Of a stretch of 44,836 nt of DNA, positions 7,132-19,276 are shown piece after piece (position 1 is the stretch's first letter; every line of letters begins with the position of its first letter). Source of the DNA: Methanotrichaceae archaeon (GTDB lineage Archaea; Halobacteriota; Methanosarcinia; Methanotrichales; Methanotrichaceae); the NCBI GenBank assembly GCA_022865315.1, contig JALHSR010000127.1:1-44836 (forward strand). Reading direction: 5' to 3'. Position numbers and translations under genes: made by a program. The notes beneath the pieces are model-generated. The model searched no databases and was not told the origin of the DNA. It saw only the letters and a program-made list of their open reading frames with translations.

Positions 7132-7692
7132 ATGCCCGATATCGCGCTCATTGGCGAAAGAAATTTTCTTTATGAAAAGTTATTCCAAGAACTAGGTGTA
7201 ACATATCAGTTTATGCAAGCAAGCGTATTAAATAGCCCGTTCTTGCCTCAATTCAAAATGATCATGATTCCATCTGGATTCGCCAATCCTCAATACTCAA
7301 ACATTCTTCCGTCTTTGAAGAGCCTAAAATCTAAATTGGCAGAGTTCGTAAACAACGGGGGCATCCTCACAATCTTCGGACCTCTCGTTCCAGAATATGA
7401 CTACGATTGGCTTCCCATTTCGCTCAAATATATATGCGAATACGGCCCAAAAGATGTTCAACTTTCAGAGCATGAATGTGCCTGCCTCTGCGATACCCTC
7501 CGACCAGAATGTGACGGATATCTGATGCCAGGCGAAGGTTTCAATACAGTTTTAGACGATGATAAAAACCGACCAATAATTGTTGCGGGAAATTATGGAA
7601 AAGGCATGATTGTGGCCACCACTGTCCATGAATTTCCTGCAGCTAGATACATCCGATGGGCGTTGAACAAAGCAATACCAGCCAAGACTTAA
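7132..7692 (+). CDS. Class I glutamine amidotransferase-like protein (no obvious catalytic Cys)
   Basis: Not assigned a specific function. The 186 residues fit the flavodoxin-like GATase-like fold: a first strand MPDIALIGER, a strand-turn KMIMIPSGFANPQ where the nucleophile elbow would be, LAEFVNNGGILTIFGPLVP, and a late YGKGMIVATTVHEFPAARYI. The elbow reads SGFAN and not G-x-C-x-G, so it is probably not a glutaminase; ThuA-like or BPL_N-like relatives also lack it. A cysteine cluster ECACLCDTLRPEC (about residues 119-131) is unusual and could bind metal. It is divergent from nikR and followed after 1 bp by a small gene, presumably in one transcript. Confidence 0.7.
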   Translation: MPDIALIGERNFLYEKLFQELGVTYQFMQASVLNSPFLPQFKMIMIPSGFANPQYSNILPSLKSLKSKLAEFVNNGGILTIFGPLVPEYDYDWLPISLKYICEYGPKDVQLSEHECACLCDTLRPECDGYLMPGEGFNTVLDDDKNRPIIVAGNYGKGMIVATTVHEFPAARYIRWALNKAIPAKT

Positions 7693-9239: not shown

Positions 9240-9809
9240 ACGGTGATTCTTTCAAAGATTATTCCGCAAAGCCAAATTCGTATCATTGAAGAATATAATT
9301 AGATGGAGAATGGAGACACAAAGCCAATAGAATAATTAAGCTCTGTATCGCCTTACAATCCAGACTTCGTACAAGCGAGAAACCCAGCTTTGAATTGGCT
9401 TAAAAATTAAAATAAGCAGCTGATGAAAAAGATTAATATTAGATCGAACATAAACGCGCAGGGAAGGGGATCATGGAAAAAGAACGGTTAGACAGTTTTT
9501 GGCATATATATTACGGTACTCCTTCTGGATTACTTGAGTGAGATTTTTTGGGAGTATCAATAGTTTAATGCGCTATTTTTAATTTCAGTAGCTGCGGAAC
9601 TCTATTAATTCGATGTATAATAGTCGAGAAGAGTTGCCGATAGAAGCAACCTGGGGTGGCAAGTATGTTGGATGGTGACCCGAACAGGAATATCAATAAA
9701 TTTGGAATATTGTTGGTCGTTCCCTCGCAAAAACTTCTCTCAAAATATCGTTGAGGTAGGATCATTGAATTTTATCGATTTTTTTTTATTGAATTCATCA
9801 TTTAAAGTA
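9240..9809. other. Gene-poor spacer with gene remnants
   Basis: Holds the truncated FWH-YYG reading frame (9473-9541) and a 29-codon frame at 9665-9754 (MLDGDPNRNINKFGILLVV...) that has a GGGGTGG ribosome-binding site but ends abruptly; both look like 5' remnants of small genes. No RNA gene is evident. Confidence 0.4.
9473..9541 (+). pseudogene. Truncated relative of the small Mrp-operon protein (FWHxYYG motif)
   Basis: A 22-codon frame with a strong ribosome-binding site (GGAAGGGGATC before ATG) encodes MEKERLDSFWHIYYGTPSGL and then LE-stop. Its FWHIYYG matches FWHTYYG in the 52-residue membrane protein at 13147-13305, preceded in both by a charged N-terminus. The membrane helix that follows in the intact protein is missing and is not recovered in another frame. 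It lies on the opposite strand from the Mrp genes. Best read as the remnant of a duplicated gene. Confidence 0.5.
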
Positions 9810-9959
9810 TTAATCTCCTAGATAAATACCAAACCATGAATATAGTTGGATCAAAAAATATATGAAACTAAAAATGAGAACTACAACGACAATTAAGTTC
9901 TCCTTAAATACTTCCATTGTATTCTTGATTTCAGCTTGAATTTTATCTTTATTGGCCAT
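9810..9959 (-). CDS. Small single-span membrane protein, 49 residues
   Basis: Not recognised. ATG at 9959 opens a 49-codon frame: a charged amphipathic N-terminus (MANKDKIQAEIKNTMEVFKE), then a hydrophobic helix at about residues 21-40 (NLIVVVVLIFSFIYFLIQLY) and a short tail SWFGIYLGD. The clean division into charged and hydrophobic halves argues for a real gene. The upstream sequence GTGAGAT is a fair ribosome-binding site. It is the last of five tiny genes on this strand downstream of the antiporter operon. A role with that complex is only inferred from position. Confidence 0.55.
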   Translation of the reverse strand: MANKDKIQAEIKNTMEVFKENLIVVVVLIFSFIYFLIQLYSWFGIYLGD

Positions 9960-10119
9960 ATCTATCTCACTGTATGTTCTAAAAATTAGTATTACTATTT
10001 GGGATCGATGGTGAGGGGATAAAGGTGATAATCATTTTCATGAATTATAAAAAAATGAGACGATCAAGAAGCATTGAATCCATTGGATGAGGCAAGCCCG
10101 GTATCGCCTCTCCACGCAT

Positions 10120-10230
10120 TCACCACGGCCCTTTCATCCAAAGCTGACTAAAAACAAAAACAATCCAAACGATCAATACGACAATTCCTAATGTTGCTCC
10201 TGCGAGCACTAATCCCTCATCTGCATCCAT
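10120..10230 (-). CDS. Small single-span membrane protein, 36 residues
   Basis: Not recognised. Starts at ATG 10230 with GGTGAG four nt upstream. The peptide has an acidic N-terminus (MDADEG), one membrane helix (LVLAGATLGIVVLIVWIVFV) and a short basic, Trp-containing tail (FSQLWMKGPW), so a topology with the N-terminus outside is suggested by the positive-inside rule. Its size resembles the small accessory subunits of membrane energy complexes, without a specific match. Fourth of the five tiny genes. Confidence 0.6.
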   Translation of the reverse strand: MDADEGLVLAGATLGIVVLIVWIVFVFSQLWMKGPW

Positions 10231-10294
10231 ATGCCTCACCTATCAAGCAAATTTTGATTATGTGCTATTATTATTCTCACGTACCTTATATCAT

Positions 10295-10411
10295 TCATAG
10301 TCTGTCGCTTGTCAGCTGGTCCTTAAAGGTATATCGATCTCTGACCTTATATAACGCATCATGCACAGGATTATACACTCCACGGCTAGATTCTGGCTTT
10401 GGTGGCCTCAT
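10295..10411 (-). CDS. Small soluble protein, 38 residues
   Basis: Not recognised. ATG 10411 lies 15 nt after the stop of the 28-residue gene, with GGGGTGG as ribosome-binding site overlapping that stop. The sequence MRPPKPESSRGVYNPVHDAL followed by YKVRDRYTFKDQLTSDRL is charged and has no membrane segment, unlike its neighbours. The tight spacing is the main evidence that it is translated. Third of the five tiny genes. Confidence 0.45.
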   Translation of the reverse strand: MRPPKPESSRGVYNPVHDALYKVRDRYTFKDQLTSDRL

Positions 10412-10426
10412 GAAGCTATTCCACCC

Positions 10427-10513
10427 CTAAAATTTTGACTGCAACACCATGGTTATATATATCCAAAAAGTCGTGATTGCCATCAACCAATAGCCAAGCG
10501 ACCGAATGCTCAT
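10427..10513 (-). CDS. Micro-membrane protein, 28 residues
   Basis: Not recognised. ATG 10513, with GGTGG about 7 nt upstream. The peptide MSIRSLGYWLMAITTFWIYI followed by TMVLQSKF is almost entirely one membrane helix with a short basic start. At 28 residues it is in the size range of known single-helix accessory subunits, but no family can be named. Followed after 15 nt by the 38-residue gene. Second of the five tiny genes. Confidence 0.45.
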   Translation of the reverse strand: MSIRSLGYWLMAITTFWIYITMVLQSKF

Positions 10514-10634
10514 TTTTTTACCACCATTTGAAGTTATAACTAATTCAATTAGATAAATCTCCTAGCCGTAAGCTCTCTCACTCCCGCAGACCTCTTTCGG
10601 TTCCAGCTTCATCAATTTCCCCATTTCCCTATAT

Positions 10635-10793
10635 TTAGAACAATTTTTTGACTAAAGCCACATATAACGTACACCATACTATACCAATTGTAAGAAGGGT
10701 TTCGATGATTTCCCCCAAAGCATAATAGCTTTCGACCAAAATAACCAATATGGCCATGATAGCAAGCAATGCAAATCCCTTATTGAACTTCAA
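10635..10793 (-). CDS. Small two-span membrane protein, 52 residues (TTG start)
   Basis: Not recognised. Translation probably starts at TTG 10793, because GGGGTTG is correctly spaced upstream and an in-frame stop lies 7 codons before. The protein has two hydrophobic segments, FALLAIMAILVILVE and LLTILGIV-like residues 33-47 (read as TLLTIGIVWCTLYVALV), separated by SYYALGEIIE, and ends KKLF. First of the five tiny genes; 250 bp separate it from the stop of the antiporter operon, so it may have its own promoter. Confidence 0.5.
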   Translation of the reverse strand: MKFNKGFALLAIMAILVILVESYYALGEIIETLLTIGIVWCTLYVALVKKLF

Positions 10794-13146: not shown

Positions 13147-13305
13147 TCATAATATGCCTATAGCCACTGAAACCATAAATGCAAAATATAACAGGCTTAC
13201 AACTAGCAACACATAACCGAGGATTTCAGAGGAAACGCCATAATAGGTATGCCAAAAGTACTCGCTTCTTTTCCTGCTTTCCTTTTCTTCAGCAATAGTT
13301 TCCAT
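13147..13305 (-). CDS. Small membrane protein of the Mrp operon with FWHTYYG motif, 52 residues
   Basis: Not recognised. I chose ATG 13305, which follows AAGGGGGGAT at good distance; an upstream in-frame start at 13368 is less likely. The charged N-terminus (METIAEEKESRKRSEY) is followed by FWHTYYGVSSEILG and a single hydrophobic helix to the C-terminus (YVLLVVSLLYFAFMVSVAIG). The FWH-x-YYG motif recurs in a truncated frame at 9473-9541. Located between two large antiporter subunits, it is probably a small subunit of the complex. Confidence 0.7.
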   Translation of the reverse strand: METIAEEKESRKRSEYFWHTYYGVSSEILGYVLLVVSLLYFAFMVSVAIGIL

Positions 13306-13364: not shown

Positions 13365-14867
13365 TCACACACCTCCGAAGAGCTGCCCAACGGCAATTTT
13401 CATCAGGTCATATATATAAAATGTATTGGGATGTATGAAAAATATTATGGAGATTGCAGCCGTTATTACCAGGGGGATAAGCATGAATCTTGGCGCCTCT
13501 TTTACCTTGTAGCTTCCGCTCATGCCTCCTTCCCCGATTGGCTCTTTGAAGAAGGCAGCATGTATTATGGGGAAGAAATATATTACATCCAGCAAGGAGC
13601 TTATCAAGATGACCGCCAAGAATATCCAATTGTAAGGAGAAAATAATTCCCAAGCCCCAAAACAGAGAAATAACTTGCTGATAAATCCGCATACTGGCGG
13701 AAGTCCGACCATGCCTATGGCACCAACGCTGAAGGCAAGCATGGTTACAGGCATTGTTTTTCCTAACCCCGCCATCTCGCTAATCCTCCTCTTCCCGCTT
13801 GCAACCATAATCGCACCCGCACAAAGAAAGAGAGTTATCTTCATGTAGCCATGGAAGGGTATGTAAAGCATTGCCGCACTTATCCCGCTCTGAGTCACCA
13901 TGGCCGCACCTAAAATTATGTAGGATAGCTGGCTTATGATGGAGTAAGCAAGCCTCTTCTTAAGGTCGTCTTGAGCAATTGCGAAGAAGGAGGCCACGAG
14001 CATGGTGAAACCAGCAATTATTGCCAAAACCAACCACAAGTTCAGTTCTTGCATTAGGTCTACCCCATAGATGTAGCAGACTATGCGCACTATTCCGAAT
14101 ACGCCAGCCTTAACCACGGCTACTGCATGCAATAATGCGCTAACTGGCGTCGGAGCTATCATAGCTGTAGGAAGCCAAGAGTGAAAAGGCATCCAAGCAG
14201 ACTTCAAGAAACCTAGCAAGAAACAGAAAAATATTATTATTGCGATGATTTGAGTTGCGGAAGCAAGTGCCGGTATGCCACCAGGAATGAAATCAGTGGT
14301 TCCAGTGAGGTAATAGGTGAACATGATTGCGAAGAGCAGAAAAACTCCCGACGTTAATAAATAGGCAAAATATTTATGCCCCGCCTTCAAGGCCTCCGGT
14401 GTCTGCTCATGTATGATTAACGGATAGGTAGAGATTGTAATTATCTCATAGAATATAAAAAGAGTTAATAAATTTGATGAGAGGGCAACTCCCAAAGCCC
14501 CCAATATGGCAAGGCAGAAGAAAAAGAAGAACCTTGTCTGACCATGCTCATTCAATGCTCGCATGTATCCTATGGAGTAAAACGATACTAAAATCCAGAG
14601 AGAAGAGGTCGTGATGGCGAAAATCAGTCCAAATGCATCAACCCTAAACCCGAAATTGATGTTTTCGAACATGGTGGGAAATATAGTGTAACTAATTTTC
14701 GCGCCATTAACAACTGCAGGAGCCATGGAAAGGACTAGGGCGAACATTACTATGCTTGCCGCAATTGTCCAAACCTCTCTAATATTTGGTTTGTTCCGGG
14801 ATATCGAGATCAGAACTGCAGCAATTGCTGGACAGAGTATTACTAGCAACGGTGTGATGGACTCCAT
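13365..14867 (-). CDS. mrpD: Second antiporter subunit, MrpD/NuoN-like
   Basis: Membrane ion-translocating subunit, 500 residues, about 14 helices. Key residues are in place: Glu141 of helix 5 (LFIFYEIITISTYP), Lys222 of helix 7 (FLKSAWMPFHSWLPTAM), HAVAVVKAG with Lys253 of helix 8, and ISQLSYIILGAAM in the discontinuous helix region. These residues form the proton/Na+ path in complex I and Mrp. It overlaps the upstream mrpD-like gene by one base and precedes the small 52-residue gene. Which cation it moves cannot be read from the sequence. Confidence 0.9.
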   Translation of the reverse strand: MESITPLLVILCPAIAAVLISISRNKPNIREVWTIAASIVMFALVLSMAPAVVNGAKISYTIFPTMFENINFGFRVDAFGLIFAITTSSLWILVSFYSIGYMRALNEHGQTRFFFFFCLAILGALGVALSSNLLTLFIFYEIITISTYPLIIHEQTPEALKAGHKYFAYLLTSGVFLLFAIMFTYYLTGTTDFIPGGIPALASATQIIAIIIFFCFLLGFLKSAWMPFHSWLPTAMIAPTPVSALLHAVAVVKAGVFGIVRIVCYIYGVDLMQELNLWLVLAIIAGFTMLVASFFAIAQDDLKKRLAYSIISQLSYIILGAAMVTQSGISAAMLYIPFHGYMKITLFLCAGAIMVASGKRRISEMAGLGKTMPVTMLAFSVGAIGMVGLPPVCGFISKLFLCFGAWELFSPYNWIFLAVILISSLLDVIYFFPIIHAAFFKEPIGEGGMSGSYKVKEAPRFMLIPLVITAAISIIFFIHPNTFYIYDLMKIAVGQLFGGV

Positions 14868-16384
14868 TATAGACTCCCTCCGACTCCCAAATTAGCAAGA
14901 ATCTGGTTCATCAAAGGCGTAGATAAGTCACTAAGCCAAACGAAGCCGAGAACGATACAAAGAGAAGCCAAGAACAGCATAGGACCTAGCATGCTGAAGG
15001 GTAGTCCATCCCCTCTTCTTTCGACCTCTCGTTTCGTTGCCTCCTCATGCTTCACAAAATATATCTTGTCGATAACCCTCCAGAAATAAATCAGGTTAAG
15101 AAGGCCGCTCAAAAGCAACACTACAACAAACTGATATTGAGCGGCATCCAAAGAAGCTAGAATTAGGAACAGCTTGGACGCGAAGCCGGCGGTGGGCGGA
15201 ATTCCGATCAGCGAAGCTGCAGCAATTGTAAATGCAGCACTCGAAAACGGCATCCTTTTTCCCAAGCCCTCACAATCCTTTATTTGCCTAAGACCCTCCT
15301 TCTGATAAAAGGCTCCAGCAGACATAAACAGGCATCCTTTTCCTACAGCATGATTCAATATATGTGCAACGAGACCCACAACACCCCAGTAAGAAAAAGC
15401 AGAAAGTCCTAATCCCAGAAGCAGATAGCCCATTTGCGAGATTGAAGAATAGGCTAGCATCCTCTTCAGGTTACTCTGTTTTATTGCCCAGATTGAACCA
15501 GCTAGTATTGCTATTGCAGCGAGCCAACATAATAATATATCAAATCGGATATATTGCCAGATGAAATTTAGCGTAAAGACCGAGAAAAATAACCTGATAA
15601 GTATATAAAACATCACTTTCACATGAACTGAGGCCATCATCGAACTTATCGTAGAAGGAGCCCAGGTATAACAATCGGGCTGCCAAAGGTGGAGCGGGAA
15701 TATGTATGCCTTTATCATCACTCCAACAACTATCATGGCAAAGCCCATCTGAACCACTTTATCGGTATACAAGAGGGGTAGCAAAAGCCTCATGTCCGCC
15801 ATATTGAGCGTACCGGTGGCAGCATAGAGCCAACAAACGCCGAAGATGTAAAGGCAGGCGCCAATCGAGCCCATTATTACATAATTATAAGCTGGCCTCA
15901 ATGCCCTTCCACCGGCAACAGCTATTAATGCGTATGCGGTTAAGGATGCTATCTCTAGCCAGATGAACATATTGAATAAGTCACCTGTGACAGTTATGCC
16001 ATACAATCCGGCTGCCATTAGCTGAACCAGAACATAGAACGTTACATGCTTCCGTTCCTCAATCTCATGTTTTACATTGCTTCTTGAATAGATTAAACCT
16101 AATATGATAATTGATATGACTATAATCAATAGGTAAGCATTCATGGCATCTACAACATACTCTATCCCCCAGGGCGGTCTCCAACCACCTAGCCAATAGC
16201 GAATGGGTCCTACTGTAAGTACATAATCCAATATGAATAAGGACAAGATAAAAAAGAAGGAATTCATTATCAAAGCGATGTAATAGGGGAGCCTCCTGTC
16301 CAAGAATCCCACTAGCAGCATAGTGTAGGCGGTGAACATGGACAACCCGACTATGAGAACAGGGAAATGTTCAACCAGTTGCAT
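14867..16384 (-). CDS. mrpD: First antiporter subunit, MrpD-like
   Basis: Membrane ion-translocating subunit, 505 residues. Helix 5 glutamate Glu143 (FIWLEIASLTAYAL), helix 7 lysine Lys225 (GVMIKAYIFPLHLWQPDCY), helix 8 HVKVMFYILIR with Lys256, and YSSISQMGYLLLG are intact. It follows mrpC by 3 bp and overlaps the next gene by one base, so the operon order is C-D-D'. Ribosome-binding site GGGGTGA. Two adjacent D-type subunits are found in Mrp/Mbh-type operons that carry extra pumping modules. Confidence 0.92.
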   Translation of the reverse strand: MQLVEHFPVLIVGLSMFTAYTMLLVGFLDRRLPYYIALIMNSFFFILSLFILDYVLTVGPIRYWLGGWRPPWGIEYVVDAMNAYLLIIVISIIILGLIYSRSNVKHEIEERKHVTFYVLVQLMAAGLYGITVTGDLFNMFIWLEIASLTAYALIAVAGGRALRPAYNYVIMGSIGACLYIFGVCWLYAATGTLNMADMRLLLPLLYTDKVVQMGFAMIVVGVMIKAYIFPLHLWQPDCYTWAPSTISSMMASVHVKVMFYILIRLFFSVFTLNFIWQYIRFDILLCWLAAIAILAGSIWAIKQSNLKRMLAYSSISQMGYLLLGLGLSAFSYWGVVGLVAHILNHAVGKGCLFMSAGAFYQKEGLRQIKDCEGLGKRMPFSSAAFTIAAASLIGIPPTAGFASKLFLILASLDAAQYQFVVVLLLSGLLNLIYFWRVIDKIYFVKHEEATKREVERRGDGLPFSMLGPMLFLASLCIVLGFVWLSDLSTPLMNQILANLGVGGSL

Positions 16385-16387
16385 CTT

Positions 16388-16822
16388 TTAATTCACCCCT
16401 TCTCTTTCAAATTGCAGCTCCTTCTCTATAAGCTCGCCCTCTTCTATCGTTCCATATTTCTGATATATTCTAATGACAATGGCTAGGGCGACAGCCGTTG
16501 TTGCTGCACTGACCACGATCCCCGTTAGCATGAGAACGTGAGGAAGAGGATTCATATAGATGTATCCTTTTTCCGCTGCTTCTTTCCATAATATAGGATG
16601 AGCTCCTGTTCTCAAACCCCAGGTCCTCAAGATATCTCCCCGCCCTACATCACCGAGAGACACGACCCATAGGAAAAATGCGGTTTGAAAAATGCTTAGC
16701 CCGATAAGTTTTTTTAGCAAATTCTCTTTCACAACCACAGCGGTTAATCCAATGATGACGATGATCATAGCGATCCAGAAGTTATATTTCTCAACGATGT
16801 GCAGAGTTATCCATTCAATCAT
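16388..16822 (-). CDS. mrpC: Antiporter subunit MrpC (NuoK-like)
   Basis: Small three-helix membrane subunit, homologue of NuoK, which links the antiporter modules. Recognised by KKLIGLSIFQTAFFLWVVSLGD and PLPHVLMLTGIVVSAATTAV, both standard MrpC/MbhG features; 144 residues is normal. A longer loop between helices (GRGDILRTWGLRTGAHPILW and what follows) is slightly larger than in bacterial MrpC. The 4-bp overlap with the MrpB-like gene upstream indicates coupling. Confidence 0.92.
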   Translation of the reverse strand: MIEWITLHIVEKYNFWIAMIIVIIGLTAVVVKENLLKKLIGLSIFQTAFFLWVVSLGDVGRGDILRTWGLRTGAHPILWKEAAEKGYIYMNPLPHVLMLTGIVVSAATTAVALAIVIRIYQKYGTIEEGELIEKELQFEREGVN

Positions 16823-17307
16823 CCTTCACCACCCTCCTCCATCTCGTCCTCCTCTTTCCACGCCAGATCAAAATATTGCGATACGAACGAGGCCATCACT
16901 GTCAATCCTATGCCTACCGACACCATATAACTTACAAGAAACGACCTCGCCCCTGCTGTGCCAACATAATCTGCAACGGGCCAAAATGCAGACATATTTA
17001 GCCACTGCGCAGCACCGAAGGTAAAGAGAACTGCTAACCAACCAGCACCATTATAGAGAAACAATCCAAAGCTACTGAAAAAGGTATTTGTGGACTCGGG
17101 CATCTTCTCTCTGCCTGTTTTTGTGCCGAAAACCGTAATATAAAGGATGAAAGCAGTGGCAAGTATTGTTCCACCCTGGAATCCGCCTCCCGTCCCGCCA
17201 GTTCCTATCATCACGTAAAGACCAAATAACAGGGTCAGGGGAAACATAAGTTTTGCCGTCACATCTATTATGACGTCCCTTTTATAGACTCGCCTTTCCG
17301 GAGTCAT
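16819..17307 (-). CDS. mrpB: Antiporter subunit MrpB (MnhB domain)
   Basis: Four-helix membrane subunit. Family features: KLMFPLTLLFGLYVMIGTGG, then GTGGGFQGGTILATAFILY, the MnhB signature GGGFQGG. 162 residues, ribosome-binding site GAGGAAA. Overlaps both neighbours by 4 bp. In the Mrp complex it interacts with the MrpA C-terminal part, which here is encoded by the two genes just upstream. Confidence 0.92.
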   Translation of the reverse strand: MTPERRVYKRDVIIDVTAKLMFPLTLLFGLYVMIGTGGTGGGFQGGTILATAFILYITVFGTKTGREKMPESTNTFFSSFGLFLYNGAGWLAVLFTFGAAQWLNMSAFWPVADYVGTAGARSFLVSYMVSVGIGLTVMASFVSQYFDLAWKEEDEMEEGGEG

Positions 17308-17906
17308 AGTTTTCCTCGCCGCCTCAGAAGCAAAATAACACCAATAGCACCGGTGAGAATGACAGTTTCCTCACCCATTGTGTCGTAACCTCTGTAATCC
17401 GCAAGTCCTGATGTAACAGCATTTCCCATACCGGTCTCCTCTTCGGTCAGCTCCATAACCCTGACCGGCCAGTTATATCTGTAGACGCTCAGATTTCCAT
17501 CTACTTCAGCAATAAAATAATATTTTATAGGCTCGTGATAAAATAGCTCGCCTTCTTTGATGAGAACATTCCATCCATCTTCCGAGTAGAGCCATGGACC
17601 CTCTAGCGTTCCTTTCTCAACCCACTCGATCTCATAGTTCCCCTCATCTAAGGGCGGATAATTCTCCTTCTTGTTAAAACCCAACTCTTCTATTTTATTT
17701 TTTATTTCTATGGGCAGAATGGATTCGTTTAACTCCTTGGCATATCCACGATCTTCAATGCTAAACAGCTTGATATGCTTATTTGCGGGAGAGTTCTCAT
17801 CTCCATAAGCAGGCAGATCCTCAATTGTGTATATAGCTAACCCAATCAAGAGAAGCGCGGTGATTATCCCGAAAATTGTCAGAGTTTTCATTTCTGGGAG
17901 TTTCAT
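17304..17906 (-). CDS. MbhE-like antiporter subunit with an inserted soluble domain
   Basis: Corresponds to the MbhE part of MrpA. The N-terminus has a membrane helix and LPAYGDENSPANKHI; the C-terminus has NAVTSGLADYRGYDTMGEETVIL, a helix and RRRGKL. These two pieces are normally almost adjacent, giving about 95-100 residues. Here about 110 residues are inserted, hydrophilic and acidic (for example YPPLDEGNYEIEWVEKGTLE, then YHEPIKYYFIAEVDGN), probably folded outside the membrane. ATG 17906 is preferred because GTGGGAG precedes it; an upstream GTG at 17918 lies in the ribosome-binding site. Overlaps its neighbours by 4 bp on both sides. Confidence 0.85.
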   Translation of the reverse strand: MKLPEMKTLTIFGIITALLLIGLAIYTIEDLPAYGDENSPANKHIKLFSIEDRGYAKELNESILPIEIKNKIEELGFNKKENYPPLDEGNYEIEWVEKGTLEGPWLYSEDGWNVLIKEGELFYHEPIKYYFIAEVDGNLSVYRYNWPVRVMELTEEETGMGNAVTSGLADYRGYDTMGEETVILTGAIGVILLLRRRGKL

Positions 17907-18148
17907 TCTTTCTCCCACCTAGGAACTCTCGATAAACAGGCCATAAACAAAGCTGTAGAGGCCCCTGCACCGACCGCAGCCTCTGTAAATGCCACGTCGG
18001 TTGCGCCAAGCTGTAACCACACATTAGCCATAATAAAGCTATAAGCACCAGCTAGGACGATTGCAGCTAAAAGGTCTCTCACTAATAATGCCGCCGTCCC
18101 AACAATCAGAAGAAATAACAAAAGCAATAAATCGATAGGAAGTATCAT
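17903..18148 (-). CDS. MbhD/DUF4040 subunit (MrpA C-terminal piece)
   Basis: 81-residue, three-helix membrane protein matching DUF4040. The signature is DLLAAIVLAGAYSFIMANVWL, then GATDVAFTEAAVGAGASTAL, in which the conserved acidic residues of the NuoJ-like helix are kept. In bacterial Mrp this is fused to the C-terminus of MrpA; here it is a separate gene, as in Mbh-type archaeal operons. Overlaps the MbhE-like gene by 4 bp. Confidence 0.9.
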   Translation of the reverse strand: MILPIDLLLLLFLLIVGTAALLVRDLLAAIVLAGAYSFIMANVWLQLGATDVAFTEAAVGAGASTALFMACLSRVPRWEKE

Positions 18149-18164
18149 CTCTTACCCTCCTTTT

Positions 18165-18689
18165 TTATTCCTCCAGGAAAACATAGCCAACGTACTTTTG
18201 CATGGTCTGATCTACTTCTAGAGAATCTGCAGGTTCCTTGGCTATCGCATGCACCATATACCTTCCTCGCTCAGGCTCTACGTTTATCGTTATTGTTCCT
18301 GGAGTCAGAGTTATTGAGTTTGCGAATGTAACAAGCGCAAAGTCACTTCTTAGGGTCGTATCAAATTCTATTATTCGTGGATCTACAGGCAGGGTGCCCA
18401 CAACACGATATGCCACATCTATGGTTGCCAAAACTATCTGATATAGCTCCCAAATAATGTAACCGAGGAACCTTCGTAGTTTCAATAGCACCTTCTCACT
18501 GCGACTTGGGACAAACATCTCGTAAGTGAGACAAGTAACGATTAATGATGCTAATACTCCTTTTGATAATAACATTGTCAAATCGAAGGGCTCAATAAGG
18601 TAAATGGTCCACCAAGATAGAAGCAGCCAGAATATGAACATGATACAAAAGGTCAAGACAAACCTAAATGTCCTGCTCTCTCTACTCAT
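18165..18689 (-). CDS. mrpE: Antiporter subunit MrpE
   Basis: 174 residues with two N-terminal membrane helices and a C-terminal cytoplasmic domain. The MnhE family is recognised by IDVAYRVVGTLPVDPRIIEF, then FANSITLTPGTITINV and HAIAKEP. ATG 18689 follows GGAGGTGA; an upstream GTG (18698) lies inside that ribosome-binding site and is rejected. MrpE is needed for assembly or activity in known Mrp complexes. It lies 15 bp after mrpG. Confidence 0.92.
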   Translation of the reverse strand: MSRESRTFRFVLTFCIMFIFWLLLSWWTIYLIEPFDLTMLLSKGVLASLIVTCLTYEMFVPSRSEKVLLKLRRFLGYIIWELYQIVLATIDVAYRVVGTLPVDPRIIEFDTTLRSDFALVTFANSITLTPGTITINVEPERGRYMVHAIAKEPADSLEVDQTMQKYVGYVFLEE

Positions 18690-18704
18690 ATCTGTCACCT
18701 CCTA

Positions 18705-19019
18705 TTAATTCCTTTGATCTCCCTTCTTCCAGGGCTTGATGCCAGTAACATATCCTGCTTTCATTAAAGCGTGAGTTCCAGCGGGACCTGCTAGCAAATA
18801 AAAAGCACTTACGAGTAACAGTTTTATAGTTATATAGGACCATCCTTCATAGATCATACAACCGAATATAATGAGAACCTGCCCCATAGTATCGCATTTA
18901 CCGGTTGCATGCAACCTTGTATAAAAGTCGGGAAACTTATACAATCCTGCTGTCCCGGCTATCATAAAAAATGCTCCACCCGCAAGAAATATTGTTGATA
19001 AAATTTCTATGGGGAGCAT
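18705..19019 (-). CDS. mrpG: Antiporter subunit MrpG
   Basis: 104 residues, three helices. MnhG signature: GTAGLYKFPDFYTRLHATGK with CDTMGQVLIIFGCM, and LLAGPAGTHALMKAGYVTG. Ribosome-binding site GAGGAG. Overlaps mrpF by 13 bp. Normal length. Confidence 0.93.
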   Translation of the reverse strand: MLPIEILSTIFLAGGAFFMIAGTAGLYKFPDFYTRLHATGKCDTMGQVLIIFGCMIYEGWSYITIKLLLVSAFYLLAGPAGTHALMKAGYVTGIKPWKKGDQRN

Positions 19020-19276
19020 AGTTCTCCTCTCTCTGCATACTTGGCAATAATTATGGTACCTATAAAACTAATTGCTGCATACATAATAGCAATGTCCAAA
19101 AATTGCGGTCTTTCAAATATAAAACCCACAACGACTAATAGAACGATCGCTTTCGTTCCTATCACATTTGCTGCCACAATGCGATTGAAAGTCCCTGGCC
19201 CAATCATCGCCCTGTATGAACATGCCAATATAGTACAGCCAATTAGTATACCGGTTACTAGAAAAGGTATTATCAT
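19007..19276 (-). CDS. mrpF: Antiporter subunit MrpF, first gene of the operon
   Basis: 89 residues, three helices. MrpF features: GPGTFNRIVAANVIGTKAIV, and PQFLDIAIMYAAISFIGTII with the conserved D-x-A. It opens a twelve-gene operon, F-G-E-MbhD-MbhE-B-C-D-D'-small-107aa-third antiporter subunit, all on the minus strand with overlaps or gaps under 80 bp. The order and the split MrpA resemble the membrane arm of Thermococcus Mbh, but no hydrogenase or ferredoxin-oxidoreductase subunits follow. The complex is most simply a multisubunit Na+/H+ antiporter. Confidence 0.92.
   Translation of the reverse strand: MIIPFLVTGILIGCTILACSYRAMIGPGTFNRIVAANVIGTKAIVLLVVVGFIFERPQFLDIAIMYAAISFIGTIIIAKYAERGELCSP

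Follow-up and report, generated by a model that had tools for sequence, protein, structure and literature searches.

The question raised by this locus was whether a run of very short reading frames downstream of an Mrp-type operon consists of genes and, if so, whether their products belong to the ion exchanger encoded by the operon. The locus lies in a 44,836-nucleotide stretch of DNA, referred to here as the window, from a Methanotrichaceae genome of 3.03 Mb (G000). An initial annotation had proposed five overlooked genes, four of them encoding membrane peptides. The five minus-strand frames of 52, 28, 38, 36 and 49 codons were indeed present at the positions given there (Table 1). The gaps of 121, 15, 64 and 160 nt, in the order p52-p28-p38-p36-p49, agreed with the reported range of 15-160 bp, and G-rich stretches were found upstream of most start codons, where ribosome-binding sites had been assigned. 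The p52 start lay 250 nt behind the stop codon of D3, the gene at which the operon ends. Relatives of the frames were searched for in 50 Methanotrichaceae genomes and in 238 genomes of the class.

In the operon, Pfam matches followed each other on one strand: PF04066, PF03334, PF01899, PF13244, PF20501, PF04039, PF00420 and three instances of PF00361. The part upstream of op52 encoded MrpF, MrpG, MnhE, MbhD, MbhE, MnhB and MrpC, along with two antiporter-like subunits, 505 and 500 aa long. Contiguous homologues of the MrpA-G subunits, by which an Mrp (CPA3) system is recognized, were present. The canonical seven-subunit form with a single MrpA of ~800 aa and one MrpD was not found: MrpA was split, MbhD, MbhE and the antiporter-like genes each being separate, with three antiporter-like subunits in total. 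Split MrpA forms are known among archaeal Mbh/Mrp modules. Judged by these domains, the operon is an Mrp (CPA3) Na+/H+ antiporter with a split MrpA and three antiporter units, for which antiport activity is predicted. Because the operon held no redox subunit, an ion exchanger is the appropriate reading of the energy-conserving complex suggested by the initial annotation. The third antiporter-like subunit, D3, was carried by five of the 50 Methanotrichaceae genomes, and the reported lack of Mrp genes in two Methanocrinis strains (PMC10598746) agrees with the rarity of the operon among the Methanotrichaceae analysed here.

Table 1. Positions of the Mrp operon, the small frames and a degenerate gene copy in the window.
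Feature	Description	Positions	Strand	Remarks
Mrp operon, whole		19276-11044	minus	ends at D3
Mrp operon without op52, p107 and D3		13365..19276	-	Pfam and NCBIfam matches
op52	52-residue single-helix protein, FWHTYYG motif	13147..13305	-	inside the operon; same five D3 genomes
p107	107-residue protein, three predicted helices	12765..13088	-	adjoins D3; same five genomes
D3	third antiporter-like subunit, 572 aa	11044..12762	-	NF009310/PRK12668, 690 bits (cutoff 564); PF00361
p52	hydrophobic orphan frame	10635..10793	-	TTG start
p28	28-residue single-helix membrane peptide	10427..10513	-	ATG start; synonymous excess
p38	soluble frame, not hydrophobic	10295..10411	-	ATG start
p36	36-residue single-helix membrane peptide	10120..10230	-	ATG start; Shine-Dalgarno (SD) GGTGAG
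p49	49-residue peptide	9810..9959	-	ATG start; synonymous excess
degenerate op52 copy		9473..9604	+	TGA and TAA inside

On the minus strand of the region, eight frames reached 28 codons or more, against a mean of 6.8 in shuffled sequences (P = 0.34). Strongly hydrophobic frames numbered three against a shuffled mean of 0.35 (P = 0.002); p28 fell under this cut, yet was mostly apolar. The frame count, together with the two relative-less frames p38 and p52, would fit a reading in which all five are chance open frames of an AT-rich intergenic region. As an account of the whole run this is highly improbable, since p28, p36 and p49 display selection at the protein level and have kept their starts, order and strand. 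A chance origin is contradicted for these three and is still likely for p38, which had no relative beyond itself among the 238 class genomes. The p38 frame sits in the p28-p36 spacer, which measures merely 5-14 nt in relatives and is expanded in the window genome; being soluble as well, p38 looks spurious. For p52, the 238 genomes yielded no credible relative, the matches being limited to E 0.03-0.08 and several of them stop-broken. No alignable DNA was found at the sister loci, and in relatives the stretch between D3 and p28 did not contain the frame. As a gene, p52 is unsupported and unproven.

The three remaining frames behaved differently. All five D3-bearing Methanotrichaceae genomes carried p28 (E <= about 3e-16) and none of the 45 D3-less ones did, a co-occurrence with a chance of 1 in C(50,5), or 5e-7, if the two were independent. 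The p36 frame was found in four of the five D3 genomes and in 0 of the other 234 class genomes, and p49 in three of the five. Outside the D3 genomes, none of the three had a credible match among the 238 class genomes: the sole other p28 match (E 0.009) covered 17 residues inside a 523-codon frame, and the leftover p49 matches (E 0.003-0.008) were short, partial and in several cases stop-broken. In G030 (locus L003) and G031 (L004), all three frames lay behind D3, in the order and on the strand seen in the window. G015 carried p28 and p36 behind D3 and lacked p49, and in G004 (L050) p28 alone was present, p36 and p49 being missing. Start codons were kept across the relatives, that of p36 in G031 being a GTG at the same codon. 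Downstream of D3, DNA similarity between the window and its sisters was restricted to the end of D3 and to p28, p36 and p49. The genes beyond the peptides varied between species while the order and strand of D3-p28-p36-p49 stayed constant, which links the peptides with the Mrp operon and not with the other flank.

Substitutions were mainly synonymous in all three frames. Between the p28 copies of G030 and G004, 19 of 19 synonymous and 17 of 65 nonsynonymous sites differed (P 3e-9), and the synonymous excess between G030 and G015 reached P 1e-4; the window-versus-sister comparisons of p28 alone gave P 0.07-0.09, suggestive at most. For p36, Fisher P values of 0.005-0.015 were obtained (0.005 for window-G030), and for p49 values of 2e-9 (window-G030) and 5e-7. 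The D3 gene of G030 followed that of the window (79-91%) to about base 1500 and was then 96% identical to that of G031 over the last ~200 bases, and the G030 and G031 blocks downstream of D3 were 85% identical, spacers included. This mosaic of D3 and p28-p49 at L003 points to recombination or a chimeric assembly; with the apparent recombination taken into account, p28 is represented by four independent lineages, p36 by three and p49 by two. By their substitution patterns, p28, p36 and p49 are genuine genes under selection, encoding predicted single-helix membrane microproteins of 28 to 49 residues. From the proposal of five genes with four membrane peptides, these three conserved membrane peptides were retained. 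Conservation of frames and starts in sister species, on which that proposal had been made to depend, held for them and not for p38 and p52.

The p28 sequence is predicted to be helix almost throughout, and its start is preceded by an SD sequence that reads GGTGG in the window and GGTGA in relatives. The p36 peptide, 58-61% identical to its relatives, would comprise 39 aa if the start were taken at GTG 10239. In p49 (55-58% identity to relatives) a charged N-terminal part is joined to one membrane helix. No model came near its cut-off when the tiny peptides were compared with Pfam and NCBIfam, including CydX, KdpF and TorE/NapE, and sequence searches of the PDB with p28, p36, p49, op52 and p107 gave no convincing match. 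Profile comparison assigned a probability of 2-7% to paralogy between p28 and op52 and between p36 and p49, and both relationships were rejected. It was also considered that p49 might be a detached copy of the C-terminal helix of D3: when it was compared with 5,534 membrane segments, several D3 tails ranked among its best matches. Other peptides, the orphan p52 included, favoured D3 tails too, so the likeness is largely one of composition. A descent of p49 from the C-terminal anchor helix of D3 may have occurred, with a likeness that stays within composition.

The 52- and 107-residue proteins noted earlier within the operon, op52 and p107, exist and are conserved. For op52, the synonymous excess between G015 and G004 gave P 8e-6, and weaker matches were found in ANME Methanosarcinales (best E 1e-5). 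An FWHTYYG in L062 was out of frame within another gene and was dismissed as chance. A degenerate op52 copy (profile E 3.7e-6) was observed on the opposite strand, downstream of a universal stress protein gene, and read MEKERLDSFWHIYYGTPSGLLE*DFLGVSIV*, where asterisks mark stops. At the loci L133, L134 and L136, the genes for the second antiporter subunit and op52 were separated by one for a protein of ~420-440 residues ending in TGVTESYGAGKEDVWLIK or a close variant; a remnant of it was seen in G030 (L003 ~7350-7415), and it was absent from the window.

The window copy of p107 had no Pfam or NCBIfam match. It bears a C-terminal DYY motif and represents an unnamed conserved protein beside D3 in archaea and sulfate-reducing bacteria, encoded upstream of D3 at loci in the range L003-L082. 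Homologues preceded D3 in most of 77 D3 loci, from archaea (including ANME) to Desulfobacterota, a count in which the automatic choice of frame may be wrong at some distant loci. Its model consisted of three long helices at low confidence; with a mean pLDDT of 66 it was not good enough to search structures with. In many Desulfobacterota, an unannotated single-helix gene of ~40-50 residues with the pattern HEPVPGY lay before p107 and D3 (L014, L015, L018, L021-L023, L032-L034, L038, L041-L044) and gave no NCBIfam match. As a homologue of op52 the bacterial gene of ~42 residues was rejected (7% probability); it is a positional analogue only. No recognisable p28, p36 or p49 was found at ANME and bacterial D3 loci. 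Other small membrane proteins, of 64-93 aa with an LSxIQKEGxxDD-like ending, were observed behind D3 at the ANME-1-type loci L020, L025, L035, L046, L069, L077 and L082. Across the loci compared, tiny genes for predicted single helices recur beside D3, and p28, p36 and p49 are an addition of the Methanotrichaceae.

In acetate-using methanogens the peptides were found only directly behind the exchanger cluster, which makes them probably small helper subunits of the exchanger. We proposed that p28, p36 and p49 are microproteins encoded at the 3' end of the operon and inserted beside the Mrp arm near D3, where they stabilise or tune it, and this reading is considered probable. The three peptides would be translated as single helices from the 3' end of the three-antiporter operon, would insert beside the membrane arm like the supernumerary helices in complex I, and would act on the arm as CydX, KdpF and TorE act on their partners. 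With op52 and p107 added, they would make up the accessory subunits of an Mrp complex of Methanothrix type. We infer that they are co-transcribed with mrp, associate physically with the complex and contribute to its stability or activity. Linkage and co-occurrence, as expected of Mrp subunits, were found for all three. The initial annotation had left open whether the frames belong to a complex rich in small subunits or to a separate microprotein system; the shared order and strand and the match between p28 and D3 favour Mrp subunits. It appears improbable that the peptides form an independent membrane microprotein unit that happens to adjoin the operon and has a promoter and function of its own. 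In the window, D3 and p28 lie 530 nt apart, which would leave room for a separate promoter, a TTATAA lies ~25 nt before p28, and the peptides have no homology to Mrp subunits; however, the same gap measures 86-259 nt in relatives, and in 238 genomes the peptides never occurred without D3, though the other neighbours of the block change.

The linkage evidence would also fit if p28, p36 and p49 were assembly factors or regulators of Mrp, such as insertion helpers or protease adaptors, that stay outside the mature complex. Such a role would suit the fact that some genomes do without p36 or p49, and also the charged, soluble N-terminal part of p49, but p28 is present in every D3 genome and, as almost nothing but helix, offers scant space for a regulatory domain. 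This explanation is regarded as unlikely, though less so than a separate unit. Within the preferred reading of the peptides as accessory subunits, the absence of p36 from G004 and of p49 from G004 and G015 implies that neither is essential to the complex. It is a somewhat doubtful extension of that reading that a three-antiporter Mrp complex of ~15 subunits contains op52, p107, p28, p36 and p49 in stoichiometric amounts, with helices gained lineage by lineage.

No report of small Mrp-associated peptides in Methanotrichaceae was found in the literature. The operon resembles the MrpA-G systems of Bacillus, Dietzia and Methanosarcina acetivorans in its MrpB, C, E, F and G homologues, in the MbhD and MbhE domains of MrpA and in its antiporter-like MrpA/D subunits. 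It differs from the published seven-subunit complex (PMC5703873) and from the solved structures, which contain seven subunits and no such peptides (PMC9568556), in its three antiporter-like subunits, its split MrpA and the presence of op52, p107, p28, p36 and p49. With the D3-type Mrp clusters of ANME archaea and sulfate reducers (the PRK12668 neighbourhood) it shares the placement of p107 immediately upstream of D3, with, in many bacterial clusters, a single-helix gene of ~40-50 residues before p107. In contrast, p28, p36 and p49 are absent behind D3 in those clusters, and homology of the sulfate reducers' small gene to op52 is not demonstrable. The unnamed conserved proteins p107 and op52 thereby gain a clear genetic context, which for p107 extends to sulfate-reducing bacteria, and the small genes are open to deletion-phenotype testing.

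The closest functional parallels are CydX, KdpF, TorE/NapE and AcrZ, which have fewer than 60 residues and one helix and whose genes accompany those of a large membrane complex; in the case of TorE, the anchoring and assembly of the partner are strengthened (PMC6134056). The window peptides match none of these families, and the parallel is drawn by analogy. Mrp antiporters, which have been described as seven-subunit machines, are closely related to the arm of complex I that pumps ions, and mitochondrial complex I has gained supernumerary single-helix subunits. If op52, p107 and the three peptides were all stoichiometric subunits, an archaeal relative of the complex I arm would have gained supernumerary single-helix subunits of its own, in parallel to those of mitochondrial complex I. 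A three-antiporter variant with several tiny helices, present in methanogens that use acetate, would show the repeated origin of accessory single-helix subunits in this superfamily.
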